DNA of 55,667 nt from Planctomycetales bacterium (GTDB taxonomy: Bacteria > 4484-113): assembly GCA_030606285.1 (NCBI GenBank), contig JAUWGS010000013.1, forward strand, positions 1 through 55,667, read 5' to 3'. The position numbers and the translations under genes are program-made. Shown here piece by piece: positions 17,154-21,146 of this stretch (position 1 is its first letter; each line of letters begins with the position of its first letter). The notes under the pieces are model-generated. The model was not told the DNA's origin. It did not search any database and saw nothing but the letters and a program-made list of their open reading frames with translations.

Positions 17154-17648
17154 GTGGATTTGACCACTGGTGACGTGGTCCAGGGGCGCATCGCTGAAGT
17201 ACGTGACTTCGGCGCATTCGTTTGGTTGGGAAACGGTCAGAAGGGGCTGATTCACATCAGTGAAATCAGCGACGAGTTCGTTAAGGACATTCGCGAGAAG
17301 GTTAAGCCGAATCAGAAGGTGAAAATCAAGATTCTCTCGGTCAAGGAAGACGGCCGCATCGAGCTTTCGCTCAAGCAGGCCTTTACCCTCGACTACACCA
17401 GACCTCCCCGGGAGGAGGAGCGAGAGGAACTGGCAATGCCGGCACCGGAGATGTTCGCCGGCGAGCCGCCCGAGCTCAACTTCAACCTCGAGGAAGAACT
17501 CAGGAAAACTAATTACGATTTCGACCAGATGCTCAAGGTGTTCAAGCGCATGAGTGAAGAAAACCTCGTGGACTTGAAACGGAGCGTCGAGGCTAAGCGC
17601 GCCGGCAGTAAGCGGAAGCGCAAGAAGCGTCCTCGAAATCGGAGTTAG
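17154..17648 (+). CDS. S1 RNA-binding domain protein with basic tail
   Basis: The 164-residue protein has one S1 domain at residues 1-75 (GDVVQGRIAEVRDFGAFVWL, GLIHISEIS, VKIKIL), then an acidic middle, and a very basic C-terminus (AGSKRKRKKRPRNRS). It resembles the YabR/GSP13 group of single-S1 proteins that bind RNA or ribosomes. The start is GTG 17154; AAAGGAGGT lies eight to nine bases upstream and no ATG is available. tRNA-Leu follows 18 bases after the stop, so the two may be co-transcribed and then processed. Confidence 0.8.
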   Translation: MDLTTGDVVQGRIAEVRDFGAFVWLGNGQKGLIHISEISDEFVKDIREKVKPNQKVKIKILSVKEDGRIELSLKQAFTLDYTRPPREEEREELAMPAPEMFAGEPPELNFNLEEELRKTNYDFDQMLKVFKRMSEENLVDLKRSVEAKRAGSKRKRKKRPRNRS

Positions 17649-17666: not shown

Positions 17667-17750
17667 GCCGAGGTGGCGGAATTGGCAGACGCAGGGGACT
17701 TAAAATCCCCCGGGAATAATCCCTTGCCGGTTCGAATCCGGCCCTCGGCA
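17667..17750 (+). tRNA. tRNA-Leu (TAA)
   Basis: The 84-base class II tRNA has acceptor GCCGAGG/CCTCGGC, anticodon arm GGGGA-CTTAAAA-TCCCC giving anticodon TAA (decodes UUA/UUG), a long variable arm, T loop TTCGAAT and A73. CCA is not encoded. It lies between the S1 gene and the ileS leader. Confidence 0.95.
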
Positions 17751-17761
17751 GAGAGGGTATA

Positions 17762-17833
17762 ATGGTGGCGGTAATGCGGGTAATGAACGAACTGCACGTT
17801 ATCGCGGTTATTATCCTGCCAAGGGCAGGGTGA
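17762..17833 (+). CDS. Ile/Val-rich leader peptide of the ileS attenuator
   Basis: An in-frame mini-gene ends in MNELHVIAVIILPRAG and TGA (17831-17833). Its Ile codons are ATC 17801-17803, ATT 17810-17812 and ATC 17813-17815; Val and Leu codons fill the same run. In-frame starts are ATG 17762 (with GAGAGG five bases upstream), ATG 17774 and ATG 17783. A TATAAT at 17758-17763 could itself be the promoter, in which case the first ATG would lie upstream of the transcript and 17774 or 17783 would be used. The tandem Ile codons sit right before the first strand of alternative hairpins (17815-17829 against 17821-17863), as expected of a stalling peptide for ileS. Confidence 0.7.
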   Translation: MVAVMRVMNELHVIAVIILPRAG

Positions 17834-17863
17834 CTTTGCACGCGCTGCGAGTACCCGGCCCTT
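17815..17863 (+). promoter_or_regulatory. Mutually exclusive hairpins: ileS attenuator control region
   Basis: Hairpin 1:2 is CCTGCC (17815-17820) with GGCAGG (17824-17829). The competing antiterminator 2:3 pairs AAGGGC (17821-17826) with GCCCTT (17858-17863) and GGGT (17828-17831) with ACCC (17853-17856), with one A-G mismatch between, plus AC/GT beyond a bulged G. Forming 2:3 consumes the left arm of the terminator at 17858-17884. A ribosome paused on the paired Ile codons would cover strand 1 and allow 2:3. One that reaches the TGA would cover strand 2 and let the terminator form. Confidence 0.7.
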
Positions 17864-17884
17864 CTCGTTAGAGAGGGGCTTTTT
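17858..17884 (+). terminator. Intrinsic terminator (attenuator) before ileS
   Basis: GCCCTTCTC (17858-17866), loop GTTA, GAGAGGGGC (17871-17879) pair over nine base pairs with one T-G wobble and are followed by TTTTT (17880-17884). It lies 49 bases upstream of the ileS start, on the same strand. Confidence 0.85.
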
Positions 17885-17933
17885 GCTTTTACAGGAAGAA
17901 CGATGGCTGACCGGCTTAAAAGGGGATTACACG

Positions 17934-21146
<3,213 letters not shown>

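Follow-up and report, generated by a model that had tools for sequence, protein, structure and literature searches.

A very probable ribosome-mediated attenuator with an isoleucine leader peptide upstream of ileS in a Planctomycetales bacterium and its relatives

Transcription attenuation by a translated leader is a classic principle. In the trp and ilv leaders of enteric bacteria the control codons stand near the end of a short open reading frame (ORF), a pause hairpin overlaps them, an antiterminator and an intrinsic terminator follow, and termination is the default when the leader is untranslated. The locus described here is like them in all of these points. It is unlike them in that its target is a tRNA synthetase gene and not biosynthesis, that it has fewer control codons than the ilv leaders, and that neither ilvB nor leuA is detectable in its phylum. 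In the pheST attenuator of gamma-proteobacteria the leader is likewise rich in the amino acid of the controlled synthetase and the terminator likewise precedes the synthetase gene, but there the pair is Phe and pheST, here Ile and ileS. Leader-peptide attenuators of synthetase genes that are known or predicted comprise pheST, Streptomyces leuS and trpS, and bacillar hisS/hisZ (PMC1262725, PMC2965389). The predicted Streptomyces leaders and the bacillar His leaders resemble the present one in that they attenuate synthetase genes or related ones in bacteria other than Proteobacteria, and differ in amino acid and phylum. In these surveys of Streptomyces and bacillar leaders ileS is either under T-box control or unmentioned (PMC1262725, PMC2965389), and T-boxes have been described for ileS (PMC2494555, PMC1262725). 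A T-box ileS leader shares with our locus the gene, the signal (uncharged tRNA-Ile) and the decision between terminator and antiterminator; however, the T-box binds the tRNA directly, whereas here a translating ribosome would read its charging, and no T-box model matches. In the literature covered we saw no leader-peptide attenuator described for ileS; most subscription journals lie outside that coverage, so novelty is unproved. Both the target gene and the lineages appear to be unreported before.

The DNA analysed here, called the window, is a stretch of 55,667 nucleotides (contig C10) from a genome of 2.3 Mb, one of a set of 10 genomes from its phylum. On the plus strand an S1-domain gene, tRNA-Leu(UAA), the leader ORF, a terminator, ileS and a probable aminopeptidase gene follow each other (Table 1), the last beginning 5 nt 3' of ileS. 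The ileS product scores 934 bits with TIGR00392 (cut-off 621), and its first 400 residues are 91% identical to the nearest named record, 'bacterium isolate GMC4.metabat2.94'. With the model of mupirocin-resistant MupA it reaches 940 bits, slightly above the 934 bits of the general ileS model and below the MupA cut-off of 1900. tRNA-Leu(UAA) precedes the leader in all members of the order, and the S1-domain gene lies 5' of tRNA-Leu in the relatives as well. A 14-codon ORF, MADRLKRGLHDVEV-stop (17903-17947), runs across the ileS start in a different reading frame and has a Shine-Dalgarno-like AGGAAG; its ATG is missing from the congener G001.

Table 1. Elements of the ileS leader region, with positions counted from the first letter of the window
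Feature	Position	Strand	Basis
S1-domain RNA-binding protein gene, upstream neighbour	17154..17648	+	NCBIfam S1-domain matches
tRNA-Leu(UAA), upstream neighbour	17667..17750	+	Rfam and ARAGORN
Putative ribosome-binding site of the leader ORF, GAGAGGG, immediately 3' of the tRNA	17751..17757	+	Position; same in congener G001
Leader peptide ORF, MVAVMRVMNELHVIAVIILPRAG-stop	17762..17833	+	Frame, Ile codons and stop kept in 5/5 order members
Hairpin A:B (protector); A 17811-17820, B 17824-17833	17811..17833	+	Folding; shuffles P=0.002
Antiterminator B:C; 17822-17840 pairs with 17846-17862	17822..17862	+	Folding; shuffle tests
Intrinsic terminator; arms 17857-17866 and 17871-17880, T tract to 17884	17857..17884	+	Folding; G001 comparison
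ileS, isoleucyl-tRNA synthetase, MupA-like type, regulated gene	17934..21146	+	TIGR00392

The leader ORF has 23 codons, from ATG 17762 to TGA 17833, and ends in HVIAVIILPRAG-stop. Its 3' half reads GTT ATC GCG GTT ATT ATC CTG CCA AGG GCA GGG TGA and holds the only three Ile codons of the leader, ATC at 17801-17803, ATT at 17810-17812 and ATC at 17813-17815. These are the control codons, and they match the regulated gene. Three Ile within the last 11 codons of the ORF occur in 0.8% of dinucleotide shuffles. The homologous leader most likely starts at ATG 17762, with GAGAGGG in front, because the only ATG in the congener is at that place; the placement of start codon and promoter is uncertain. 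A TATAAT at 17758 was considered as the leader's own promoter and rejected: it reads TGTAAT in the congener and overlaps the leader start. Conservation at the level of codons suggests that the leader is translated.

An earlier note on this DNA had described the mini-ORF, the adjacent ATT ATC at 17810-17815, a hairpin CCTGCC/GGCAGG and an intrinsic terminator with the left arm GCCCTT, and all of these are present in the sequence (the terminator at 17857-17880 plus T tract). The hairpin, A:B, has 10 bp and stretches from the Ile codons as far as the TGA, with its core at 17815-17820 and 17824-17829. The competing pairing that the same note gave as AAGGGC(A)GGGT with ACCC(G)GCCCTT is real as well, but its extent was understated: the antiterminator spans 17822-17862 and joins AGGGC(A)GGGTG(A)CTT(T)GCA to TGC GAG TACCC(G)GCCCT at -20.7 kcal/mol. 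In shuffle tests on the window, A:B reaches P=0.002 and the antiterminator P=0.03, and the whole leader fold has a z of -3.1, with 2 of 200 shuffles equally good. None of these window-only statistics is overwhelming by itself, and it is conservation in relatives that carries the case.

How a ribosome would shift the balance was computed on the assumption that its edge lies 15 nt from where the P-site codon begins. When the codon seven before the stop (codon -7) occupies the A site, the uncovered RNA, taken as far as the last base of arm C, forms a single long antiterminator of -20.7 kcal/mol. When the stop codon is there instead, just -3.3 kcal/mol is left, and the terminator (-17.9 kcal/mol alone) forms. 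The geometry thus proved to be of the trp/ilv type, as had been claimed: when Ile codon -7 or -6 occupies the A site, the ribosome leaves B free so that the antiterminator forms, and one that has read to the TGA covers B, the strand 2 of the original description, so that in the computed folds just the terminator forms. According to the computed energies, no alternative fold is as stable as the terminator in any ribosome state once arm D has been synthesised, and therefore the switch must be kinetic.

We consider it very probable that the leader is a ribosome-mediated transcription attenuator of the trp/ilv/pheST type which senses charged tRNA-Ile and controls ileS. The transcript would probably enter through the S1-domain gene and tRNA-Leu(UAA) and carry the leader ORF. 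When Ile-tRNA is sufficient, the ribosome would reach the TGA and cover B, and the terminator would form before ileS. When it is scarce, a stall at the ATT/ATC codons would keep arm A covered, B would pair with C, and transcription would enter ileS. In an untranslated leader, hairpin A:B would hold B and the terminator would form. Where transcription starts, that it terminates and how it responds to isoleucine are predicted here from the sequence.

All five ileS loci of the order have a leader ORF, an antiterminator and a terminator, in sequences that differ. At each of them a short ORF with Ile codons lies 5' of the gene, with the intrinsic terminator between the two. The leaders end in VIAVIILPRAG-stop in the window, VIAIILPRAG-stop in G001, YAIIIFCPPGG-stop in G004, VAIIRPVGG-stop in G005 and HTIAIMCPAGA-stop in G003; codon -7 is Ile in 5/5, and Ile is the residue common to them while Val varies. 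The earlier note had named, as a refutation, relatives that keep the hairpins and lose the frame or its Ile codons; the opposite was found, both being kept at 5/5 loci. A hairpin of CCC/GGG type spans approximately codons -5 to -1. The antiterminators vary in sequence, for example GGGGGGCT with AGCCCCCC in G004 and CTGATGT with ACATCAG in G005. In all five genomes the antiterminator uses the left arm of the terminator, which by folding is free for it only when the ribosome stalls at the control codons: with the ribosome at codon -7, the folding energies of the RNA to arm C are -20.7 to -27.6 kcal/mol, and with the ribosome at the stop just -0.8 to -6.1, the terminator alone having -17 to -23.

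The antiterminator is better than in dinucleotide shuffles in 5/5 genomes (P 0.004-0.03; Fisher 9.5e-7). For the Ile-bearing ORF the five P values are 0.008, 0.002, 0.04, 0.10 and 0.13 (Fisher 6.6e-5); three genomes give significance, and the test is weak in G005 and G003 (P 0.10 and 0.13), which have only two Ile codons near the stop. Both combined values overstate independence because the five genomes are related. The protector or pause hairpin that overlaps the control codons exceeds shuffles in G001 (P=0.03), as it does in the window; G004, G005 and G003 have a hairpin at the A:B position, yet it is no better than in shuffles. Between window and G001 the Ile-rich half of the ORF differs by three substitutions, all of them synonymous (CCA/CCC, AGG/CGG, GCA/GCG) and all preserving hairpin A:B, and additionally by one in-frame deletion of 3 nt. 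The terminator stem has 0 changes, its loop 3/4 and the 5' half of the leader 15/33, and the conserved segments are constrained relative to the other segments with P = 3e-7. In L010 (G003) the distance from attenuator to ileS is ~268 nt and includes low-complexity sequence of the GGGACCAGGGATTAGGGACT type; in the other order members it is 49-79 nt.

Could the hairpin be a mere terminator of tRNA-Leu, the Ile ORF and the alternative pairing being coincidental and the ileS promoter lying further downstream? The tRNA requires a 3' end, and in G007 and G009, which belong to a sister family of the same class, a plain terminator follows 14-15 nt after tRNA-Leu with no leader ORF. In the order, however, the terminators lie 103-140 nt from the tRNA, the conserved Ile ORF and the competing pairing stand in between, and the Ile-rich part of the ORF varies just synonymously or in frame. 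We regard this reading as very improbable. No ileS match was found in G002, G006 and G008, the contig of G006 ending ~40 nt past its tRNA-Leu. We also think it very improbable that the leader is translated and acts by another route, either by re-initiation or translational coupling to ileS or by responding to a signal other than Ile-tRNA charging. One proposal has leader peptides increase downstream expression through re-initiation (PMC4833913), but the window ORF stops 100 nt short of ileS, a stable terminator and its T tract intervene, the antiterminator pairs with the terminator arm and not with the ileS start site, and the shared residue is Ile and not Val.

In Firmicutes, Chloroflexi and some Actinobacteria ileS is commonly controlled by T-boxes (PMC2494555, PMC1262725). 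In our comparison set they stand 5' of other ileS genes in Chloroflexi, Thermus-like bacteria and others; both bear out the view that outside Proteobacteria ileS is usually T-box-controlled. A T-box or another known leader RNA that binds tRNA or a metabolite is nevertheless hardly conceivable here. The window leader has no Rfam match at the gathering threshold, the tRNA excepted; at E up to 10 there are low-scoring matches far below gathering scores and none of them is a T-box; and the 106 nt from tRNA to terminator hold no T-box sequence. The T-box family (RF00230) and the Rfam amino-acid leader families were thus ruled out at the sensitivity of Rfam, the identical covariance search having recognised T-boxes at L116 and L128.

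Ile-rich leaders with terminators were found 5' of ileS in at least four further lineages in a survey of ~80 ileS upstream regions from other groups. The leader count is a lower bound: the automatic scan for ORF plus terminator was incomplete and missed the G047 leader (L013), a later ORF scan missed the G328 leader (L164), and both were found by eye. In the phylum of G047, 20 loci were aligned whose leaders end in IIIAIRRAVVG-stop or near it; Ile is invariant at codons -11, -10 and -7, and the changes are synonymous or consist of an in-frame extra ATT. The leader end GTGGTGGGC pairs there with the terminator GCCCATCAC in a 9-bp antiterminator. In G122, of the same phylum, the leader is ISIIILIDGGQKA-stop, and ATGGTGGGC is complementary, by eye, to the terminator arm GCCCACCAT. 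This type of ileS occurs in 3 of 41 genomes of the G030 family (L061-L063), all with an Ile-rich leader (MNFTNTIIIISSIIK-stop, MMTIISIIIISIICLKK... and MTLRAAIIIIISIICFQ-stop), which suggests that ileS was transferred along with its leader; no evident antiterminator was seen in these three. Further leaders are MKQAVGIIGIIIMRPPVASALD-stop and VRNIIINIAIMRSPVASPFA-stop in the G206 class and MHDAIIIRIISP-stop and MPQRATIIIRISGP-stop in the G244 family. An IleS tree made by a quick method is too poorly resolved to separate several origins from one older origin with losses. As a tentative proposal, which as a whole we hold to be possible and somewhat doubtful, leader-peptide attenuation of ileS might be a widespread and unrecognised alternative to the T-box with several origins among bacteria with MupA-like ileS, and in this order might have grown from a tRNA-Leu(UAA) terminator, so that one hairpin would end the tRNA-Leu transcript and gate ileS in an auxotroph for branched-chain amino acids.

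Acetolactate synthase ilvB (TIGR00118) and leuA (TIGR00973) were detected in 0 of the 10 phylum genomes (G000-G009) at the thresholds used, and the same models matched 14/14 and 13/14 control genomes. Because both are undetected, the phylum probably imports branched-chain amino acids and its members are probable auxotrophs. A general habit of leader attenuation in the phylum was considered and rejected: no Phe leader was seen upstream of pheS and no clear Val or Leu leader upstream of valS and leuS, and ilvB and leuA are undetected. In G005 (L101; G005:C76:25400-26900, minus strand) a short ORF, MCHWSRYWILVSPA-stop, with two Trp and few Leu/Val codons and ending in a GCCCCGCATAGCGGGGCTGTTTTCTT terminator, sits 5' of a class I tRNA synthetase gene.

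The elements of the ileS leader are small. They would add isoleucyl-tRNA synthetase to the genes attenuated by leader peptides, and would extend such attenuators to lineages beyond Proteobacteria, Actinobacteria and Firmicutes. With a T-box elsewhere and a leader peptide here, ileS would be a case of different sensors for one problem. The absence of ilvB and leuA may provide a physiological reason: an organism that imports its isoleucine would have just the synthetase, and no biosynthetic operon, to attenuate.
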